Shown: in pieces, positions 21,801-64,000 of the stretch
Numbering within the stretch: the stretch's first letter is position 1
Layout of the letters: each line of letters starts with the position of its first letter
Source of the DNA: Macrocybe gigantea
Lineage: Eukaryota > Basidiomycota > Agaricomycetes > Agaricales > Callistosporiaceae
Assembly (NCBI GenBank): GCA_011319805.1
Contig: SJRY01000326.1
Coordinates: 44,367 to 108,366, forward strand
Reading direction: 5' to 3'
DNA: 64,000 nt
Made by a program: the position numbers and the translations under genes
Notes under the pieces: generated by a model
Told to the model about the DNA's origin: nothing
The model's input: only the letters and a program-made list of their open reading frames with translations
Database searches by the model: none

Positions 21801-22291
21801 ACACAATCAATCAGTCTACCGGGCTATCACCATTTCAACTGTATATTGGATGGTCACCTTGCATAATTCCCCCATTGCAACCACGAGATGAGGCAACCAT
21901 GGAGGAACAGACCACAGATGGAAAAGATGCTGAGGTTTTTCTCCAGCGAATGCAATTACTCATGATGGAGGCACAGGATCAATTACCAGCAGCCAAGATC
22001 AACCAAGCCTCGAGCTGTATGCTGAAGGGTGCAGAACAGAAATATGAAGTAGGCACCCCTGTAATGCTGACCATGAAATATCACTGCAGAGAATATCGAA
22101 AGAAGGGTGAAGGGTGCATAGCCAAGTTCATGCCCAGGTTCGACAGTCCCTACAAGATCATAGAGGCATGGCCAGAAAGATCGATCTATATACTTGATTT
22201 ACCAAATTCGACTAATATCTTCCCAACCTTCCATGCTTTGGAGCTTCGACCCTATCACAAGAACGACAATAATGAATTCCCTTCAAGATGA
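18899..22291 (+). pseudogene. pol: Family IV pol remnant (RT-RNase H-IN)
   Basis: One frame with in-frame stops, often where R/Q/W is expected. The longest open part, 19706-20842 (378 aa), holds RT from motif LDMTNSFF (first Asp at residue 27) through YLDD (89-92), then RNase H (ITTDASDFASGGVLSF, YTDHKTLLNF, DNTVADALS). The integrase zinc region and core follow in fragments (20936-21637: CDECQHNK, VAIDFIGPLP, IISDWDKLF), then a C-terminal part 21794-22291. In SDWDK the usual RG/KG after the Asp is altered. There is no chromodomain. It is dead as a unit. Confidence 0.85.
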
Positions 22292-47046: not shown

Positions 47047-47071
47047 GCTATGCATAGTGTTGCCGCGGCTC
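47047..47071. repeat. hAT copy A left TSD and TIR
   Basis: TSD GCTATGCA 47047-47054; TIR TAGTGTTGCCGCGGCTC 47055-47071. The TAG start and 8-bp TSD fit hAT elements. Confidence 0.95.
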
Positions 47072-47352
47072 CAACTCGGAACCGACTAAGAACCGGAGCC
47101 GAGTTGGGGCCAAGCCGAAGCCGAGCCGGATCGGCAATAACCGCTAACGTCGGCTCAGGGGAACCGAACAGCCGCGGCTCGTTTGCCAAGTCGGTTGGAG
47201 TCGACTACAGCCGCTGAACTGATGGAGCTGGGCATTCCAGAGAAGAAAAAGTAAAAATGCACATTAGATTACGTGTATACTTCCAAGAATTATGGTAATA
47301 CTAAATGTCGTGGTATCGTAGTCCTAGAAATTAGATGTAGTATTGACAGCTA
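47072..47352. other. Left subterminal region of hAT copy A
   Basis: 47072-47235 is dense in GAGCC/GGCTC, GCCGA and GAACCG motifs in both orientations, as expected for transposase-binding sites. 47236-47352 is the 3' flank of the SPT5-like gene. The same sequence is in copies B and D. Confidence 0.6.
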
Positions 47353-49858
47353 TTATTTGGCACGTAACTTTCGAGCTTCGGTGCGCATTGCCTGCATAAG
47401 TCCATCGTTAATCTTTTTTTGCTCTGGCGTCTCGTAACCCTGGCATAAGTCCGCAGAAGTCAACTCGACTATCTCTCCTGACAGGCTGTCCTCGCCGCTC
47501 TCGTCTCGGTTCATGACGGCGCACCGGATGATTGCCGTGTCATCATCATACCGGTGATGGATGCGACGCACGTATTTACCTCGGTGCTCGCCTCTCACGA
47601 CCACTAAAAGACCGTTGTCGCGAGTTGGATGAGCCGGTTCAACCGTAACCCATTGCGTTGGGATATTTTCCGACGTTTTGTAGTGCTGGTGTCGCAGAGA
47701 GACATTGCCGTTTTCATCGGATACAATCGAGATTGCCAGCTTCTTGTTGTATCCGCCGCCGTTCACCTTGACCCGTACCATACGACCGACAAGACGTGGA
47801 TCGAGCAAAAAATGCTGCGCCTCGGATTGTTGGCTTGTGGAACTGGGATGCAGGCTGGGAGCAGGTTGTCGCGGAGTCAGTGCAGGGAGAGGTGAATAGG
47901 GCATCCACGCGCTGGGATTCCAGGCTGGGCTCGACAAGCCAAAGTTTGGCATCGGTGTTTGACCACCTGTCATCCCAAGTGTGGGTGGGGCCAGTGAATG
48001 AGAAGAGCTTGATGCCTCGGGGTGATTGCGAGGCTTAAATCGAGGATTGCCATGTGGAAGGCAGGTGAAAAGTTTTTGACCGGACCTGTTAGATTCGAAT
48101 CAGCAAGGACTTATGCCAATGCAACCAGAACTTACGGTGGATCAACCACGTCGTCATAATCGAACATGTAGTTTTGAAATGGGGTGGCGGGATTGAAGCG
48201 CAGAAGTTGGACAACTAATTTGATGCCGCTTGCAGTAGATTCATCGCATATGACGTCCTGGACCATAGCGCGAGCGCCCTTCATGGAGTGGTGCTGCTTC
48301 GTTATCAACACCTCACGTCCCCTCCATGGAATGTACTCTCGGTCCTGCGTCGTTTCGCGCGGCGGTGGCGGGTTTAGCAGATTTTCTGGCTCAATAATCC
48401 TTAGGCAATTGATGTGCATGGAATACGACTGGGAAAGATATCAGAAATAGTGATAGAAATATCGCAGGCGTCCTTACAACTAAGTTGCTCCCCATGGATT
48501 GTGCCAGGCCATCCGGCTGCTCAAGAAGGTGCACAGTTGTATCAACCACGCCCACGACCCACGCCTTTTGGCCTATACGTGGTCCGCCCGTCATTTCAAC
48601 GAAATTTCCTGCCACAATCGCTTTGCGAAGATCACGCCAGGGAACGTTGACCAAGCCCTCCCCATTTTCCAAATCTACTTCAACGCCATTCTCAGAAAGA
48701 GAGCGAATAGTTCCTCGCTTGCCTGAGGATGTGACGTCGACAATTTCCTGCTCTGCAAATTTCCACTCTGCGGGACATATGAACTTGGCAGTCTGGACCG
48801 CCGGATGACCGCTGACATGGTATGTCAGAAACGCCTCACTGGACAAGTGAACGTCAGCACGAGTCACGGAATGAGAGTCGAAGTCCTTCAACAGGAGTCC
48901 GTGTTCCAAATTCACACCACAAAGCTGGAATACTTGATCCTCCTCCATGTGCCTGAGCCGAAGGTGTAAGCGTTCGGGGAGAGCGGAGGGATCGAATAGC
49001 TTGGGGACGGGAGGAATAGTTGATCGTTTCCTCTTCTTCGGGTGGGGCGGATCGTTGAAAGTCAGGCGAGGTATCAGCAAGACACCTACGAAGGGGCCGG
49101 CACAGTTGCGGATTAAGCCTACGTCGCCCTTGTACCGGCCCCGGAGAACCCTCACCCATGACCCGACTGTAGGAGTATCCACAGGCTCCAATACCGTCAA
49201 GGTCCGCTGCCAATCCTTTACGTCGATCTGCTTTGCGTTGATTTCCAGGGTACGATGAGAAACACCTGGGATTATTTTGAGGAGCTGGCGGAGGGCTTGA
49301 TTCATCGTTGCTTCTACATAGATGGAGCCGCGAGGTAGACCCCTATGGAAAGCAGCACGGAGTTGATGCTCAGGTTTGGCTGCCAGGAATAACGACATCA
49401 ACGCCTGATCCTCCACGCCAATCTACACAGAGAACGTTAGTAGCCATCGAAATGCTTAAGGTCCACTTACGCGGCAAGGAATACGCCATAATGGATAGTC
49501 ATCGTCTTTCAATATGCCCTCCAACGGAACGCCCACACTGATTTCTTCGTCCAGCGGACACAGAGACGTATTTCGAGGTTGATGCGCGTACTGTGCGATG
49601 CGCGACAGCAGGCTTTCAAAGCCGTCCTCGTTTTCATTGTCCTCCGGTAACCGGCGTGCGGAGGGACCAGTTTGCACATCAGGGATCGTATCGTCTATGA
49701 AGTCGTCTGGAGATAGAATAGTTATCTTGTGTCATTTCATAGAGTCAGTCCAGCTCACCAAGATCGTCCTCCTCCTCATCATCACTGTCATTTTGGTCGT
49801 CCACCTCCGCCTCAACGTCGAAGAATCGTAAAGCTGCGTCTGAAACGTATCGGGGCAT
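47353..49858 (-). CDS. SPT5-like transcription elongation factor, transposon cargo, 768 aa
   Basis: Five exons: 49858-49759, 49706-49471, 49422-48478, 48428-48136, 48085-47353. The four GT-AG introns are 48-52 nt and the joined frame has no stop. The ATG at 49858 is preceded in frame by TAG. Domains: acidic N-terminus (about 16-35), NGN-like domain about 105-192 (WRIPCRIGVEDQALMSLFL, GSIYVEA), KOW units near 197-220, 338-360, 385-413 and 461-487, a Ser/Pro linker with a CTR-like SPAWNPSAW (about 577-585), and a last KOW near 682-705. SPT5 clamps RNA polymerase II with SPT4 in the nucleus and is usually 1,000 aa or more, so this is a shortened paralog. It is divergent from the transposase gene, inside the TIRs. 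A role in transcribing the element is inferred. Confidence 0.88.
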
Positions 49859-50422
49859 TGCGGCAACTTTGAGTGCGCGTAGAGGCTAAGAATCATTATC
49901 AGCATCCTGCCGCACGAAACCGATGGGTAAAACGACGGCAATGATCATTGCGAACGACGCGTACGTCGTGCAATGACTGATTTCACGCGTTCTTCTTTGC
50001 CTTTCATTTTTTTTCTCACTCATTTTCATTGCAATAACTATTTACTGACTACTAGAACGAACGTTGACTTACCGGGAGTGGACGACCACACCACGAAGGG
50101 GGATGGTAGTAGTAGCGGACGAGGAGTGGAAGCGTGCGAAAGCGGAGTTGGGCGGCATCATAGGGTAGTGGGAAGTTGAAACGTCGGGTATTGCCCGGGA
50201 CCGAGTTCCCGACTCGGGCAATACCCGACGTTTCAACTTCCCACTACCCTATGATGCCGCCCAACTCCGCTTTCGCACGCTTCCACTCCTCGTCCGCTAC
50301 CACCACCATCCCTCCTCATAGTGTACCAAGTTGCCATCCCATTGTAGTTAGGCGTCGATTTACATTAGATAGTACCTGAGTAACTTGAATGTCATGAAAT
50401 GAAGTGACTGTCTGAGAAGTTA
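49859..50422. promoter_or_regulatory. Divergent intergenic region with 86-bp perfect hairpin
   Basis: The perfect inverted repeat 50112-50197 / 50215-50300 (86 bp per arm, 17-nt loop) lies between the starts of the two element genes. A smaller imperfect palindrome (CATTGC to GCAATG) is at 49946-49975. No clear TATA was fixed. It could act as a shared promoter or regulator, a transposase-binding site, or a hairpin RNA. Confidence 0.75.
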
Positions 50423-53400
50423 ATGGACAATGAGGAGGATAAATGGGTCAATGACGCCCAAGTAGGTCAGATAACCCGAACGCATGATGATAAAGCACCA
50501 CCATACATGCAGCTTAGGGAGGACCTCGAGGAGGGGAACATTCAAGTACGTCCCTTGCCAGCATACTCTCTAAACGTAATCGAGCCTCTTATCTTTGCCA
50601 TGCAGGATGTAGCATGCATACCGCATTCAATCCCTCCCGTCCGCGTCATCAGGTGGCATGTTCCACCTTATATGACCAGGCGAGCGTTTCGGACTTGTGC
50701 CATCTCCACCCAGTCAGTAATGCCTCGCAAACCACGACGCCAAGCGACTACAGAGCCATCGACGGATGCTCCACCAACAGTTCCCATCGATTCTACACCC
50801 GAACCTTACACTCCGGAAACTGAAGGTGGCGCTGGAATAAAGACAAGGAGACAGCGGGCTATCCCTTCATGGCCAACTCACCCCACCACTCGTCTGGCAG
50901 CCCAGCAGTCTGCTCCACATTCTCTCCAGCCTTCTACGATTTCCTCAGCGGATCCCACTCCGCGTCCTATTCCGCCTGAGATCTTTCCGCCTCAGACCCT
51001 TCTGCTGCCTCGTCCCACTAGACGCCAAGCTGCATCTCCCCCCGACCTTTCCTCTGGTGAGGAGTTCGACTATGGAGGCGTTGATGGCCAGCGGTACAGC
51101 GACGATGAAGGTTCTACTAATGCGCCACCACCGTCAGAGAGTCTGGCAACCGAAGCCGGCTCTTCACCCCTTCCAGTCGTCAATTTCACGGGCCCTGCGA
51201 AGTCCAAAGGACGAAATATCGCCTACGATATACAACACTTCTTCGATAAATCGGACAAGACCGTAGGCACCGTGTGCCTTTTGTGCAAGTAAGTCGATCT
51301 CAATAGCCCTGAATTCATCTCCCTAATGCTTGCCATATTGTAGGAAGAACGGAATCAACAAGGTCTTTAGTTCCACGACTTCGAACTCTCCCCTTCGCGA
51401 CCACTTGTTCAGCAAGCACCGGGACGAGTACCTCAATGTTTGCGCAAGTAAGGGATGGAAAGTTCAGAGTGCCGATACAAGGAACGCTCCAGCCTTATCA
51501 GCACTAGACGCCAACAGACTACCTTTCACGCTCGAGAGGTTTCATGAGTATCTCGTCAGATTCATCGTCGTCGATGATCAGGTAGGCCCATAGTTTGTAC
51601 ATGACAGCCTGACACTGACTGTTATTCCCGTTTAGTCCATCAGCGTCGTTGAATGCCCAGAGTTCCGGACGCTGCTCCTCCTTCTGCGGGAAGCACTGCG
51701 CGATGCGGACATTCCTCATCGGACAAAGATAAGGGAATCGATTATGCAGCGAGTACACCGTCTTCTACCTGAATTAAGGCAGAACTTTGCGGTTTGTTTT
51801 TGATTTACATATTTCCGTCTTGTTATTCATCAGATTTTTCAGAACGCTCCCGGAAAAGTGAACTTCACGATGGATATTTGGTCCTCGTCATCTTTACGCC
51901 CGTTCTTGGCTATCACAGCGCATTGGATAAGCCGCGACAGTGACAGTCGTGCTCTCAGTCTCGAGTGTTCCCTGATTGCTTTTCATCACCTGCGTGGCAC
52001 ACACTCCGGAGAACGTCTTGCTAGAGTCGTCCTCCCTCTTTTGGACCGCGTCGGAGTAACCGTCAAGGTAATGCCATTTTACATACAAGAAGTGCTAGCT
52101 CTAACATTTAAGTAGGTTGGACTTTTCACTCTTGACAACGCGTCCAACAACGTGACTACTCTTCAACATCTCGAGTCCCTCCTCCGACAACGCGATATCC
52201 CATTTCACCACCGAGAGAATCGTATACGATGCTTTCCTCATGTTGTGCACATTTGTGTGACACATGTCATTAAGATGTTCTCGAGCAAACCAGAAGAACG
52301 CGCCAACATTTGTATTGAACCGTCAACATCCGATGCTTTTACCATTCCCCTTGACGCATCCGCGATCCCGAACGTTTTCTTGGATACCTCAGATCCAAGT
52401 AACGACCAAGATTTCGATGAGAGTATTCTGCACTCCATTCCACCCCCTCCTAGCTGGGATAACGAAGCTCGTCAAACGTATGAGGAAGCCGTGGCTCGTA
52501 ATCCGCTCGCCTTGGTCCGGAATGTTTGCTGTGCTGTGCGTTCATCTGGTCAACGAAAAGAAGCGTTCTTTCAAGTCATTCAAGATGGCATCGCACGCGG
52601 AAGATTCAAGGACGACGAAGGCCTATTATTAACCGTCTACGAGCTTCTCCTCGATGTCAGGACACGATGGGATTCAACGTTCCTAATGGTTGAGCGATTC
52701 CTTTATCTCCGTCAGGTATGTATTACCAATCCAACTTGGTCACGGATTCACAGTCTTACAATGAATCCCAAATAGCCGATCGAAGTCTTTTTGTCGTTGC
52801 CGGAACAGAAAGCTCTTCACAAACTACGTTTAACGTCATGTGAATGGCAGGTTTTGGTCGATATTAAGAGCATCCTCGAGGTATTGTAGCTGGAGCATTC
52901 TATTAACAGACTTTTTTCATTTATTCCTCCTTAGGTGCCACATAACGTGTACAATGTCTTATCGTTTGAGCGGGTACCTACACTATGTGATACAATCCCT
53001 GCCATAGAGACATTCATGACTCTCTGGGAAGAGCTCCGCGAGAAGAAACCGCATCTTGGTCCTTTCATTGATGTCGGTTTGGACTACGCTATCAAGTACT
53101 ACCGAAAAATCGACGATACCCGAGCCTATGCAATCGCATTATGTGAGTAGCCCATTGTGACGTGGACATTTACTGACAGCATTGTCTAGTTCTAAATCCG
53201 ACTGTGCGGATGTCGTGGTTTCGAGTCCACTGGGAACGGGAATACGCTGACGAGGCTGAGAAAGCGATCAAGGAAACAGTACGTTCGGTTGTGTTTCTAT
53301 TTGATCGACTGCTGATATTCAAGTAGATGATGGAATATCGGCATAATCAACCAGTCACGCGGATCGCGAGCAATGCCCCTGCTGAGCCACGTCGCGTCGC

Positions 53401-53956
53401 TCCACGACAACTCGCCTGGCAGAAACTGACGTTGAAGGTGACAGAAGGACGTGGCATCTCGACCGGAACCCAGAGCGTCGAGGAAGAATTTCAACGGTAC
53501 GTCATGGGCCCATTGCATAATATAGGTGAAATTGTTCCACTTCGATTTTGGCAGGTAAGTTGATAAATATTGAATATTCGAATGACCTCTCATGAATTTA
53601 TCCAGGCGAACGAAACGGTCTTTCCTACCCTTTACGCTATGGCACTCGACTATCTCTCTGTACCCGCCTCAGCTGTTCCGTCAGAGCGAATATTCTCATC
53701 GGCCAGCGAAACGGACACAAAAAAACGCAATCGCATTCATCCAGCGCTTATGGAAGCCCTTCAGTTACTCAAATTCGCATACAAGAAGGATCGCATCAAT
53801 TTCACGCAAGGCCTCCTTACTCCGATTTCGGACTTGATGCCTAGTGACGGCGATTTGCTTGCCAGACTGGCTGGTGATGCTGATTCATCGATCATGGATG
53901 ACATTTTACGAATGACGGGGCAGTATTATGACGAGGAGATGAACGAAACAAACTAA
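50423..53956 (+). CDS. hAT transposase with BED zinc finger, ten exons, about 1,021 aa
   Basis: Exons: 50423-51288, 51344-51581, 51636-51791, 51843-52067, 52116-52715, 52776-52880, 52935-53142, 53190-53278, 53327-53554, 53606-53956. The nine GT-AG introns are 47-60 nt, all phases fit and no stop occurs. The Pro/Ser-rich N-terminus is poorly conserved in style, and a start at 50720 (MPRKPR, 922 aa) is equally possible. BED finger C285-x2-C288-x20-H309-x4-H314. RNase H-like catalytic region with Asp in FTMDIWSS (about 431) and LDNASNN (about 502). C-terminal hAT dimerisation region in exon 10 (DYLSVPASAVPSERIFSSAS). It would cut and join the TIRs in the nucleus. It may also mobilise copies B and C. 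Confidence 0.93.
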
Positions 53957-54241
53957 TATTGTCTATTTAACACGAACGAAATACAGGTTACTTTTTCTAC
54001 ACTACACCAGCACATTTCGACTCCCCACATAAGCCGAACGATGACGACGCATGTGCCTCAACAGCATTTTGCTGTCGCTGAACAGGTCCGAGAGCCGGCT
54101 TGGTGACCAGTTTAGTCGGCCCAAACAGGCTTAGCTGAATAAATCGGCTCGGCTTTACCCGCTGAGCCGAGTCAGACCCGAAGTCGCGGCTCACCAGAGC
54201 CGACTTGCGGTTAGCCGAGCCGCGGCAACACTAGCTATGCA
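53957..54241. other. Right subterminal region, TIR (54217-54233) and TSD (54234-54241)
   Basis: The 3' flank of the transposase, then a GC-rich run with many GCCGA, GGCTC and GAGCC motifs (54060-54216), the TIR and the TSD GCTATGCA. The same end opens copy C (62056) and, in worn form, copy E (23670-23918). Confidence 0.85.
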
Positions 54242-57200
54242 CCCTTCACCCTTCTTTCGATATTCTCTGCAGTGATATTTCATGGTCAGCATTACAGGGG
54301 TGCCTACTTCATATTTCTGTTCTGCACCCTTCAGCATACAGCTCGAGGCTTGGTTGATCTTGGCTGCTGGTAATTGATCCTGTGCCTCCATCATGAGTAA
54401 TTGCATTCGCTGGAGAAAAACCTCAGCATCTTTTCCATCTGTGGTCTGTTCCTCCATGGTTGCCTCATCTCATGGTTGCAATGGGGGAATTATGCAAGGT
54501 GACCATCCAATATACAGTTGAAATGGTGATAGCCCAGTAGACTGATTGATTGTGTTCATCATCTGGAATTACACGCGGGGCAGCACAGCCACCCACCCTT
54601 TCTGCAAATGATCCATGTAGTACCGCAGCAGCTGGTTGATCATTTTGTTTGTGCATTTACTAGCACTGTCAGTCTGGGAATGATTTGAGGAGCTCATCTT
54701 CAAGGATATACCTGCAAGTCATGTAAGAGAGCACCAGAAACCAGATGTGAAGAGTTTATCCCAATCGGAGATGATGTTGCCCGGCAGCCCATTGTTACAG
54801 TACCAGTGATCAAAAAACAAGGTCACAAACTTGGGTGCGTTCATATCCATCTGGCATGGGACTAGCCATATGTCAGCTTCAAGCTGATCCATCATTGTCA
54901 AAATGCCATTGAAACTATCCTCCTCTGGTAAGGGACCTATGAAGTCAATTGCCACGGATGACCCGCGATCTTCGGGCACAGACAATGGATATAAAGGGGA
55001 GTTGACAGCCTTCGTCCTGTCCTTGTTATATTGACATTCATCACAACTGGAGATGTAGCCACTTTCCAGATCCTTCTGCATGTTCGGCTAGTAGAATGAT
55101 TCGCACAGTGATCCGTATGTCTTGTTAAAGCCAAAGTATTCCAATGAGTCATGTCTGAGCTGAAAGATGCGCTCGCGTAGCCTGGAGATTCTCAGTATAA
55201 CTAACTGATTACCAATGAACCAGAGATTGTCCCACAAGGCAACAGATTCAAGGCTCTTTTGTGCATTTGGCAACTTGGCGCACCATGGGTCTGATGTATA
55301 ACTGGCTTGGATTTCCTTGAGGAGATCATCCTCCATCTTGAGCTCATGTAAAGCACCGACTATGTTTCCTGTAAATGCCTCAGCAGCCGGGGCAGGATCT
55401 GCGCTGGCCAACCCAGCCAATGCCTTCGATGAGAGTCATATTGATACCTCAGGACCTTTAAATATGCACACTATAGGTGCAACACTGATGCCCTCCACAT
55501 CACTCTCCATTGCCTATGGCATATGTGCAAGTTCATCCATAGACACCGAGTCCAATGCCACAATGGTTGAGATATGGGACAGTGCATCTGCTACTGTGTT
55601 GTCTTCATCTTTGATGTAGACAAACTGGAGATCGTACTGTGACAAGAACTCCATCCACCTCGCCTGTCGCCTGGAGAGTTTGCATTGGTTCTGGAAGTTC
55701 AACAGGGTCTTATGGTCAGTGTACACCAGGAATGACACTCCTAGCAGTTCCGGGCACCACTTCTTCAAAACACGGATGATGGTGAGTAGCTCCTTTTCAT
55801 GCATCAGGTAATTAAGCTCTGCACTCTTGAACATAGTCGAGTCGAATGCCACCAGCCATGCTGTCTCCCATGATGGTCCAAATGAGAGGACACCACCCGA
55901 AGCAAAATCGCTTGCGTCCGTAGTAATGTAGATGTTATTCGAATCCAGGGCATCATAATCGATTGTTGTCAAGCACTCACAACCTGTCACCATACGCTTG
56001 ATGCTGTCAAAGGCAATCTGGTCCTTAGCTGTCCAACCGGGGAAAGACCTTTGTGCTTCTTTCATTGTTAAATGATTCAACTGAGTGAGGTGCGGAGACA
56101 ACTTAGGCAAAAAGACTGCAAGATAGCAAACAAGGCCCAGAAACCCATGGACTTCCCAAGCACACCATGGCACAGGCCAGTTCAGAACACACTCCACCTT
56201 TCCTGGGTCTGCTTTGATGCCATCTTGGAAGACAAAGTGCCCCAGGAACTTGACACGAGTTTGGAAGAAATTTGACTTCTTCGGGTTGCAATACAGACGC
56301 ACCCTCCGAAGAGCCTCCAACACCAAACAGACATAGTGCTCGTGTTCCTCTGGTGAGTTTGACCATATAATAATGTTGTCCAAGTATACGTGGCAAATCT
56401 TGCCAATAAATTTGTGCAGCGCAGCAGTGACGTGCCTCTGGTGTATCAACAGAGCATTCTTAAAGCCCATTGGCATGACCACCCACTCGTACAGTCCAAA
56501 TGGAGTCATAACCACTGTCAAGGGAATGTTGTCCAGGTGCATGTGCATCTGGAAAAATGAGTTTGTCATGTCCAATGTCGACCAAATCTTCCCCTTAGCA
56601 CAATTATTTAGGATACTATTGATCCTTGGCAATGGATGGCTGTCTACCACTGAGTTTTCATTTAGTTGGTGATAGTTGTTAACCTATCAAGGCAGAACTG
56701 TCGGTCCACCTTGGGGATGATAAATGAGGGAGATGCATGGGGCAAATCTGAGGGCCTAATCCAGCCAGCTTCCAGATGTTGTGAAATCAAAGTCTTCCAA
56801 GCCTTACAATATTTACAGGGACAAGCATAGGAGCACATCGCAATTGTCTTTGATGCGTCCTTCAGTGTGATTCATGTGACGGTGTCTGTGGGTAGTTCTC
56901 TTATGTGTGGCAGCACATCAAAGATGTCCTTGAACTCGGTTCACAGACGCTTTTCACGTTCCTTGTATTCAGCCAAAACCGCCAGAGCTGCAATGCGATC
57001 ATGTACTGCAGTGACAGGGTCCGGTGGAAGCTCATCGTCAATTGCACCAGTCAATATCAAGTGTTGTCATTGTTGCTCCACTACCGTGCGAAGCTGAGGT
57101 ATTATGTGTTTCCATTGATACAAAAAATTCTTTTTCTTCTCGATGTGGATCTGGTATGGGGACAGGGAACGGAATGGACGATGTTTATTATACAGGGACA

Positions 57201-62055: not shown

Positions 62056-64000
62056 TAGTGTTGCCGCGGCTCGGCTAACCGCAAGTCGGCTCTGGTGAGC
62101 CGCGACTTCGGGTCTGACTCGGCTCAGCGGGTAAAGCCGAGCCGATTTATTCAGCTAAGCCTGTTTGGGCCGACTAAACTGGTCACCAAGCCGGCTCTCG
62201 GACCTGTTCAGCGACAGCAAAATGCTGTTGAGGCACATGCGTCGTCATCGTTCGGCTTATGTGGGGAGTCGAAATGTGCTGGTGTAGTGTAGAAAAAGTA
62301 ACCTGTATTTCGTTCGTGTTAAATAGACAATATTAGTTTGTTTCGTTCATCTCCTCGTCATAATACTGCCCCGTCATTCGTAAAATGTCATCCATGATCG
62401 ATGAATCAGCATCACCAGCCAGTCTGGCAAGCAAATCGCCGTCACTAGGCATCAAGTCCGAAATCGGAGTAAGGAGGCCTTGCGTGAAATTGATGCGATC
62501 CTTCTTGTATGCGAATTTGAGTAACTGAAGGGCTTCCATAAGCGCTGGATGAATGCGATTGCGTTTTTTTGTGTCCGTTTCGCTGGCCGATGAGAATATT
62601 CGCTCTGACGGAACAGCTGAGGCGGGTACAGAGAGATAGTCGAGTGCCATAGCGTAAAGGGTAGGAAAGACCGTTTCGTTCGCCTGGATAAATTCATGAG
62701 AGGTCATTCGAATATTCAATATTTATCAACTTACCTGCCAAAATCGAAGTGGAACAATTTCACCTATATTATGCAATGGGCCCATGACGTACCGTTGAAA
62801 TTCTTCCTCGACGCTCTGGGTTCCGGTCGAGATGCCACGTCCTTCTGTCACCTTCAACGTCAGTTTCTGCCAGGCGAGTTGTCGTGGAGCGACGCGACGT
62901 GGCTCAGCAGGGGCATTGCTCGCGATCCGCGTGACTGGTTGATTATGCCGATATTCCATCATCTACTTGAATATCAGCAGTCGATCAAATAGAAACACAA
63001 CCGAACGTACTGTTTCCTTGATCGCTTTCTCAGCCTCGTCAGCGTATTCCCGTTCCCAGTGGACTCGAAACCACGACATCCGCACAGTCGGATTTAGAAC
63101 TAGACAATGCTGTCAGTAAATGTCCACGTCACAATGGGCTACTCACATAATGCGATTGCATAGGCTCGGGTATCGTCGATTTTTCGGTAGTACTTGATAG
63201 CGTAGTCCAAACCGACATCAATGAAAGGACCAAGATGCGGTTTCTTCTCGCGGAGCTCTTCCCAGAGAGTCATGAATGTCTCTATGGCAGGGATTGTATC
63301 ACATAGTGTAGGTACCCGCTCAAACGATAAGACATTGTACACGTTATGTGGCACCTAAGGAGGAATAAATGAAAAAAGTCTGTTAATAGAATGCTCCAGC
63401 TACAATACCTCGAGGATGCTCTTAATATCGACCAAAACCTGCCATTCACATGACGTTAAACGTAGTTTGTGAAGAGCTTTCTGTTCCGGCAACGACAAAA
63501 AGACTTCGATCGGCTATTTGGGATTCATTGTAAGACTGTGAATCCGTGACCAAGTTGGATTGGTAATACATACCTGACGGAGATAAAGGAATCGCTCAAC
63601 CATTAGGAACGTTGAATCCCATCGTGTCCTGACATCGAGGAGAAGCTCGTAGACGGTTAATAATAGGCCTTCGTCGTCCTTGAATCTTCCGCGTGCGATG
63701 CCATCTTGAATGACTTGAAAGAACGCTTCTTTTCGTTGACCAGATGAACGCACAGCACAGCAAACATTCCGGACCAAGGCGAGCGGATTACGAGCCACGG
63801 CTTCCTCATACGTTTGACGAGCTTCGTTATCCCAGCTAGGAGGGGTGGAATGGAGTGCAGAATACTCTCATCGAAATCTTGGTCGTTACTTGGATCTGAG
63901 GTATCCAAGAAAACGTTCGGGATCGCGGATGCGTCAAGGGGAATGGTAAAAGCATCGGATGTTGACGGTTCAATACAAATGTTGGCGCGTTCTTCTGGTT
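62056..64000 (-). mobile_element. hAT copy C, transposase-side part
   Basis: TIR TAGTGTTGCCGCGGCTC at 62056-62072, then the subterminal region and the transposase 3' half, almost identical to 52288-54233 in reverse. It is cut by the window end. Orientation is opposite to copy A. Confidence 0.93.
62333..64000 (-). pseudogene. hAT transposase of copy C (3' part, one frameshift)
   Basis: Exons 10 to 5 are recognisable with the same splice sites as copy A (exon 10: 62683-62333, including the dimerisation motif VPSERIFSSAS). In exon 5 a run of five C after CCA in copy A (about 52443-52447) has only four C here (about 63842-63845), which shifts the frame inside the sequence before SWDNEARQTYEE. 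No other difference was noticed by eye. If the base call is right, this copy makes a truncated transposase and would depend on another copy. Confidence 0.8.

Follow-up and report, generated by a model that had tools for sequence, protein, structure and literature searches.

The nearest described case to the element reported here is that of the TET/JBP genes carried by fungal transposons: they occur in several superfamilies, hAT and PlavakaB among them, have passed between superfamilies, are mostly open and have been proposed to play an anti-silencing role (Kojima 2025, PMC12730594). Two further systems involve paralogs of the NusG/SPT5 family. In bacteria, RfaH is recruited at a leader site and rescues elongation through operons silenced by H-NS (PMC9765446), and in plants KTF1/SPT5L/RDM3 acts in silencing (PMC3111484). 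Here, we describe a 64,000-nucleotide stretch of the Macrocybe gigantea genome, hereafter the window (C324:44367-108366, in an assembly of 41.2 Mb and 333 contigs, whose numbers are prefixed here with C). In this window, a hAT transposon encloses, beside its transposase gene, a gene whose sequence identifies it as a shortened SPT5 paralog and which we call tSPT5. The gene has multiplied with the element, is linked to two kinds of transposase and is accompanied by a palindrome.

Like the TET/JBP transposons, this is an epigenetics-related gene aboard several superfamilies, including hAT and PlavakaB, but the cargo here is an elongation factor and there a dioxygenase. The main text of that study contains neither "Spt5" nor "KOW", it reports no palindrome at the ends of transferred segments, whereas one accompanies tSPT5, and its hAT7 families have 7-bp target site duplications (TSDs) where our element has 8 bp. 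The resemblance to RfaH and its ops signal lies in the pairing of a NusG/SPT5-family paralog with a cis signal in the 5′ leader; RfaH is dedicated to silenced genes and ops forms a hairpin (PMC9765446, PMC5995543, PMC7593976). RfaH is bacterial, however, and the ops site small, and the link between tSPT5 and its palindrome consists of co-occurrence and conservation. KTF1 is likewise an SPT5 paralog whose specialised task is transcription connected with transposon DNA, but it is host-encoded, works with Pol V in silencing and is not mobile (PMC3111484). Among the papers listed by our literature searches, which leave out most subscription papers, none describes an SPT5 gene inside a transposon, and a term probe of a 2026 elongation-factor survey (PMC13289920) found none of "transpos", "basidiomycota", "agaricomycetes" and "hat". 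We put at about even the chance that tSPT5 is a selfish elongation factor that counters silencing, with the palindrome as a shared promoter or leader.

A multicopy hAT transposon with an SPT5-like gene

The element spans window positions 47055-54233 (7179 bp) and contains two divergent genes, both predicted to be spliced and open, for a 925-aa transposase and a 768-aa tSPT5. This is the arrangement that a preliminary description of the window had proposed, and the perfect 17-bp terminal inverted repeats (TIRs) and exact 8-bp TSD that it reported are borne out at these coordinates, in agreement with the empty sites. The TIR has 25 exact matches in the genome against none for a reversed-pattern control. 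Short TIRs, as expected of hAT elements, are present in the window copy; the C50 copy has a mismatch at one of its ends. A 201-bp query joining both flanks through a single copy of the TSD gave 11 genome matches. At six places the target repeat is uninterrupted, at 100% (rounded) across bases 1-201, including one inside the window at 22011-22211 on the minus strand; the remainder were at 90% (3-201), at 78% (1-192), one partial match and the window's own two flanks. Given six uninterrupted target copies and a matching TSD, the insertion into repeated sequence is real and precise. Part of the flank, 54719-55435, resembles by eye a piece of a Gypsy polyprotein.

Both ends were in hand at ten distinct sites (the window, C322/C323, C217, C48, C324:37619, C146, C50, C243, C98 and C215). 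C322, C323 and the end of C324 were counted as one common flank and C242 with C243 as another, and two C218 copies and those on C134, C220, C242 and C40 were left out. Nine of the ten sites have an exact 8-bp TSD, as is characteristic of hAT transposons, with C324:37619 as the exception. Together with the empty sites, these duplications rule out a chance enclosure by two unrelated hAT ends. In our reading of 33 PF05699 rows, 17 loci (loci, not sites) carry a transposase of this type; tSPT5 adjoins 16 of them, and the 17th (C324:106882) is cut off by the end of its contig. A genome search with the central tSPT5 exon returned 30 matches: 12 at ∼100%, three at 97%, one partial at 98%, one at 77% (C40, with six stops) and 13 at 64-68%, which constitute a second family. 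The gene is neither confined to one copy nor the host's only SPT5, the two outcomes that could have undone the preliminary description, as the host SPT5 is a separate gene at C50:437708-438685 with an NGN of 69.9 bits.

The window copy (family A) encodes tSPT5 on the minus strand, with four predicted GT-AG introns of 48-52 bp. The protein is collinear with SPT5 over residues 7-404 (solved-structure search: 8qsz_Y, E 6e-17), a span covering the acidic N-terminus, NGN and the first KOW domains. An AlphaFold2 model of exon 3 (mean pLDDT 77, 16 sequences) has chains of RNA polymerase II (Pol II)-SPT4/5 complexes as its best Foldseek matches (E down to 1.5e-15), several of which (e.g., 5oik_Z, 5xon_W) are named SPT5 in the solved-structure sequence search. 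The model also matches the KOW1-linker structure 4ytk with a TMt of 0.78, while whole-model TM-scores are low (TMq ≤0.41 among the matches listed) and the domain arrangement is uncertain. The NGN core residues A24, F25, G32, Y35, E37 and A38 of exon 3 are invariant across the 16 aligned sequences, and they may serve in SPT4 contact. The earlier assignment to the SPT5 paralogs is upheld by both the collinearity and the structural matches.

The NGN, several KOW units and CTR-like stretch that had also been described fared unequally. NGN exceeds the Pfam cut-off of 22.4 bits on the full protein in both families (23.0 bits in A, 31.2 in B, the second family). Only the first KOW of A is clear, at 30.8 bits on a stop-to-stop exon piece and 19.6 on the full protein against 33.1 in B (cut-off 22.3); the C-terminal KOW-like block is weak, and the CTR is reduced to one or two TPAWN-like units seen by eye. 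The Spt5_N-like acidic region of A scores 17.3 bits, under the cut-off of 24.2, and a GPKOW_C-like match in A is weak (26 bits, cut-off 65). KOWx and CTR are absent from the listed Pfam matches of the full A and B proteins, KOW4 is absent from those of A and has 13.0 bits in B, and KOW5 scores 13.7 in A and 15.5 in B (cut-offs 27), whereas KOWx, KOW4, KOW5 and CTR of a Mycena SPT5 (P0011) all exceed their cut-offs in the same scan.

With NGN and the first KOWs kept but no recognisable KOWx, KOW4 or KOW5 and little recognisable CTR, this layout is the one expected of a competitor. The main rival to counter-silencing is a decoy or dominant-negative protein. It would contend with the SPT5 of the host for SPT4 or Pol II and would disturb host co-transcriptional silencing in trans, instead of aiding elongation on the element itself in cis; that the Spt5 CTD restricts heterochromatin in S. 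pombe (PMC10659198) would favour such an action. However, competition with an essential factor should cost the host, and a conserved palindrome matched at tSPT5 loci only (see below) suggests an action or regulation tied to the element, so that we hold the decoy to be possible but doubtful.

Host SPT4 was found at one locus (C318) and none was found in the element, which makes the host protein the probable partner of tSPT5. A protein search returned at least 90 proteins, mostly annotated or domain-typical SPT5s (21-29% identity), among them two from Dendrothele bispora for which no NGN was precomputed, and a profile search returned at least 83 of the same kind. When the C-terminal part of one Dendrothele protein was used as the query, at least 20 SPT5-like KOW proteins of 831-1250 aa were found, 11 from D. 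bispora and nine from Stygiomarasmius scandens. The two Dendrothele proteins are 22-28% identical to tSPT5 of family A and have in common with it a C-terminal block unlike SPT5; in a scan of the 18 other relatives, VRGEH occurred in eight and RL.GK in 14. A tree was built from 43 rows and 825 columns (drawn midpoint-rooted, the host row just 39% filled). In it, a 100/100 branch separates 21 SPT5s, including that of the host, from tSPT5 and the 20 relatives, so that the clade apart from host SPT5 anticipated by the preliminary description is recovered. On the tSPT5 side, the D. bispora and S. scandens proteins form one group and the two tSPT5s another, each at 100/100, with long branches leading to tSPT5; the SPT5 of the host falls among Agaricomycete SPT5s. 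In mushroom genomes, the label SPT5 may in some cases have been given to transposon genes. A search for relatives in viral contigs gave 52 pattern stretches, none confirmed.

A second carrier and a common palindrome

Family B tSPT5, read on C38, is an open 770-aa protein 56% identical to that of family A (424/754 aligned residues). Its four introns agree with those of A in position and phase, with predicted GT-AG sites present and the frame open, although this agreement is partly by construction because the B splice sites were chosen with A as a guide. Two open frames next to the gene match a Plavaka transposase (PF18759; 56.9 and 27.8 bits, cut-off 26.3); four other frames of the region gave no PF18759 match. 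This Plavaka-type element (C38:494376-498000, L055/L077, L078), whose right part is rich in GC and contains internal repeats, also carries a DUF6698 gene (PF20414, 65.6 bits) and thus at least two genes other than those for a transposase. The preliminary description mentioned neither this Plavaka-borne tSPT5 nor the palindrome that both carriers share.

Of 44 matches to a DNA query made of the outer 3.7 kb, 13 begin at query base 376 or 377, which marks a sharp end of the family-B element. The left end CATCAGCAAAATG has 23 exact genome matches against none for the control, and seven copies read there have seven different flanks; the right end ..TTTTTGCTGATG was found in a single copy, C206. 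These termini agree with the 5′-CATCA..TGATG-3′ of PlavakaB (PMC12730594). A PlavakaB-type TSD of 2-3 bp was sought in C206 alone, where the left flank gtc and the right flank acc do not match.

The Plavaka 3′ part occurs at 15 loci, and at eight of these a family-B tSPT5 lies no more than ∼13 kb away on the same contig (C276, C235, C164, C38, C206, C317, C3 and C269). At C120 and C50 the contig start is too close for linkage to be judged, and no tSPT5 match was found at C268, C123, C267, C243 and C259. In C259 and C268, which have no tSPT5 or palindrome match, the left and 3′ Plavaka parts lie ∼4.8 and 2.7 kb closer together than in C38; they are either products of deletion or elements in which the gene was never present. 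Several family-B copies lie near contig ends, but we read this as contigs breaking in a long repeat and set aside a subtelomeric setting, telomere repeats not having been searched for.

That tSPT5 is linked to a transposase in both families, and that its C-terminal block departs from SPT5 and resembles two Dendrothele proteins, would suit an accessory protein of transposition, whose KOW/C-terminal region binds DNA or chromatin and aids synapsis, targeting or timing, its SPT5 ancestry being incidental. Yet NGN is retained, and since related genes join the transposases of two superfamilies with different termini, a transposase-specific partner is disfavoured; we consider this reading unlikely.

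Upstream of tSPT5, between the divergent genes, the window copy has a palindrome with a longest perfect run of 86 bp, and in the same place family B (C38) has perfect 97-bp arms. Other copies are less perfect: six of family A (L014, L019-L023) have longest perfect runs of 17-70 bp, and ten others of family B have runs of 52-102 bp; no such motif was found in L025, and L037 (C317) has just a 10-bp run. When the genome was searched with one A arm, all 49 matches lay in 26 tSPT5-bearing elements (16 A, 10 B); the search was not exhaustive, the palindromes of C206 and C241 having gone unmatched. A unit of tSPT5 plus palindrome is common to hAT and Plavaka-type transposons. In L014 (C217:52851-56882) the strand of the arm matches suggests that the palindrome is turned round compared with those of the other hAT copies, as after an inversion of its centre. 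An Rfam scan of the hAT element gave no match at gathering scores.

When the A and B arms were aligned over 99 columns, 69 columns were identical in all four arms, 25 differed between the families on both arms alike, two differed within a family and three had gaps. The arms have therefore kept their symmetry while diverging, through either selection or gene conversion, and their identity (69/96 ungapped columns) is well over that of third codon positions of tSPT5 (40%). Just outside the near arm lies a conserved CGGTAAGT splice donor, followed by a branch-site-like motif and an acceptor 27 bp (A) or 26 bp (B) ahead of the ATG. Conservation of these predicted splice signals suggests that the near arm belongs to the transcribed tSPT5 leader. 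On the transposase side of the palindrome no comparable donor was seen. A relic of the family-B small open reading frame (ORF) in the hAT upstream region was considered and dropped, tblastn giving no match in 50300-50800.

A long inverted repeat could also feed small-RNA production, and KTF1 (8hyj_W, named Protein RNA-directed DNA methylation 3), which acts in silencing (PMC3111484), is among the solved relatives of tSPT5 (E 2.9e-10). Both would agree with a self-limiting factor of the KTF1/SPT5L kind, one that couples the element's transcription to methylation or small-RNA pathways and keeps its copy number down. Against this, purifying selection is hard to sustain on a gene that silences its own carrier, and no GW-rich tail is visible by eye in the 768-aa protein; we find such a role quite improbable. 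A bolder extension of counter-silencing would be a eukaryotic system like RfaH/ops, in which the mobile SPT5 paralog and its own palindrome form a unit transferable across superfamilies. The palindrome, lying in both leaders, would recruit tSPT5 to Pol II and create a private elongation complex able to transcribe through methylated, silenced chromatin, and the Dendrothele and Stygiomarasmius expansions would belong to the same mobile family. We offer this extension tentatively, as something that may well prove wrong.

Selection, decay and the possible role of tSPT5

Between A and B, tSPT5 has a proportion of nonsynonymous differences (pN) of 0.272 and of synonymous differences (pS) of 0.758, the latter saturated, with identities of 68, 76 and 40% at codon positions 1, 2 and 3. 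By this pattern of substitution, purifying selection has acted on tSPT5 since A and B split. Together with the many copies and the separate clade, all seen within this genome, it makes up the support that the preliminary description had called for. Individual copies have nevertheless decayed. Relative to the window copy, exon 3 of the C218 copies has a dN of 0.034 and a dS of 0.023, with one or two stops each; that of C134 has a dN of 0.031 and a dS of 0.047, with one or two stops; and the old C40 copy has a dN of 0.18 and a dS of 0.72, with six stops. We read this as a gene maintained while mobile and probably decaying where it has landed. Older stop-containing relatives with 38-67% protein identity lie at C40:479613-480641, C146:50649-51649, C211:10718-11047 and C205:61339-62262, and suggest a longer history of tSPT5 in this genome.

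This selection bears on whether tSPT5 is a passive passenger, a captured host gene that brings no benefit. Transposons are well known to capture host genes, no tSPT5 match was obtained for some of the Plavaka copies, and a role for the gene is argued from sequence. Already disfavoured, the passenger is countered by purifying selection since the A/B split with open frames in both lineages, by the conserved palindrome and leader, and by occurrence in two superfamilies; we regard it as very improbable.

The decay of diverged copies is concentrated at CpG sites. Compared with the window copy, C-to-T changes affect 120/538 CpG sites and 23/1471 other C in one C218 copy (Fisher p 3e-50), and 74/356 CpG and 7/1021 other C in C134 (Fisher p 5e-38). 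In the young C98 copy, 24 of the 29 substitutions are C-to-T at CpG (Fisher p 2e-13), and the old C40 copy has a weaker excess, with 199 of its 392 C-to-T changes at CpG. Such CpG-to-TpG decay suggests host CpG methylation, being the pattern expected from it. In another mushroom, Marasmius oreades, hAT elements are active and hAT copies are reported to carry CpG methylation (PMC9674265).

We return to the reading of tSPT5 as a selfish elongation counter-silencer. The palindrome would act as a symmetric promoter or leader for both outward genes. tSPT5 would bind elongating Pol II through its NGN, probably paired with host SPT4, and keep the polymerase moving across copies of the element that are methylated and packed by the host. 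This would follow the logic of RfaH against H-NS and fill the evolutionary role proposed for TET/JBP. Counter-silencing, or a diversion of SPT4 or the polymerase, agrees with the retention of NGN and KOW and with the CpG decay of diverged copies; counter-silencing is made plausible by analogy, as RfaH rescues H-NS-silenced operons and the Spt5 CTD of S. pombe restricts heterochromatin.

Several observations weigh against this reading. NGN in family A is barely over its Pfam cut-off, and KOW is under it on the full protein; the CTR is among the canonical SPT5 parts that are not recognisable, and the C-terminal exon gave no confident fold (AlphaFold2 mean pLDDT 39). Linkage to tSPT5 is looser in family B than in family A, and gene conversion instead of selection could explain the symmetry of the palindrome. 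Because the young C98 copy decays like the others, tSPT5 does not prevent CpG decay. This decay indicates mutation like that of methylated DNA; methylation itself is its presumed cause, and relief by tSPT5 a proposal. The explanation as a whole is built on sequence and predicted structure.

The target of TET/JBP, the anti-silencing gene of fungal transposons, is DNA methylation itself. A Pol II elongation factor encoded by the element would, if the reading is true, be a different tactic, namely transcription despite silencing. Related copies and the same palindrome in two superfamilies point to its repeated use. This raises the question of whether elongation, rather than initiation, is a step at which selfish DNA beats eukaryotic silencing, as with RfaH and H-NS.

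The transposase gene and feature coordinates

The preliminary description named a BED-finger hAT transposase. Its hAT identity is secure, the hAT C-terminal dimerisation domain PF05699 scoring 54.7 bits against a cut-off of 21.4, but for BED there is no Pfam match at E≤0.1, only a CxxC...HxxxxH motif seen by eye. BED-type zinc fingers are common in the hAT superfamily and not universal in it. The start codon at 50720 is our choice; the nine predicted introns are GT-AG and the frame is open. Coordinates are collected in Table 1.

Table 1. Features of the hAT element in window coordinates
Feature	Position	Strand	Basis
Left TSD, GCTATGCA	47047..47054	.	terminal comparison and empty sites
Left TIR, TAGTGTTGCCGCGGCTC, 17 bp perfect	47055..47071	+	exact genome matches and control
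tSPT5 exon 5: degenerate CTR-like units, C-terminal KOW-like block, stop	47353..48085	-	predicted splicing, alignment
tSPT5 exon 4	48136..48428	-	predicted splicing; intron positions and phases as in family B
tSPT5 exon 3: most of NGN, KOW1-linker, KOW2/3-like region	48478..49422	-	domain scan, structure model
tSPT5 exon 2, NGN begins at its end	49471..49706	-	predicted splicing, domain scan
tSPT5 exon 1: start codon, Spt5_N-like acidic region	49759..49858	-	predicted splicing, domain scan
Predicted tSPT5 5′ untranslated region intron, 187 bp (186 bp in B)	49886..50072	-	conserved donor, branch-site-like motif, acceptor
Palindrome left arm	50100..50197	.	self-comparison, arm search
Palindrome spacer, 17 bp	50198..50214	.	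arm alignment
Palindrome right arm	50215..50312	.	self-comparison, arm search
hAT transposase gene, 10 predicted exons, 925 aa	50720..53956	+	predicted splicing, PF05699
Transposase exons 1-5	50720-51288, 51344-51581, 51636-51791, 51834-52067, 52116-52715	+	predicted
Transposase exons 6-10	52776-52880, 52935-53142, 53190-53278, 53327-53554, 53606-53956	+	predicted
Right TIR, 17 bp perfect match to left	54217..54233	-	exact genome matches and control
Right TSD, GCTATGCA	54234..54241	.	terminal comparison and empty sites

Parts of two further hAT copies lie at the edges of the window. Positions 1-432 are the tSPT5 end of the copy without a matching TSD (C324:37619-44798), and positions 62056-64000 are the transposase end of another copy, cut by the contig end.

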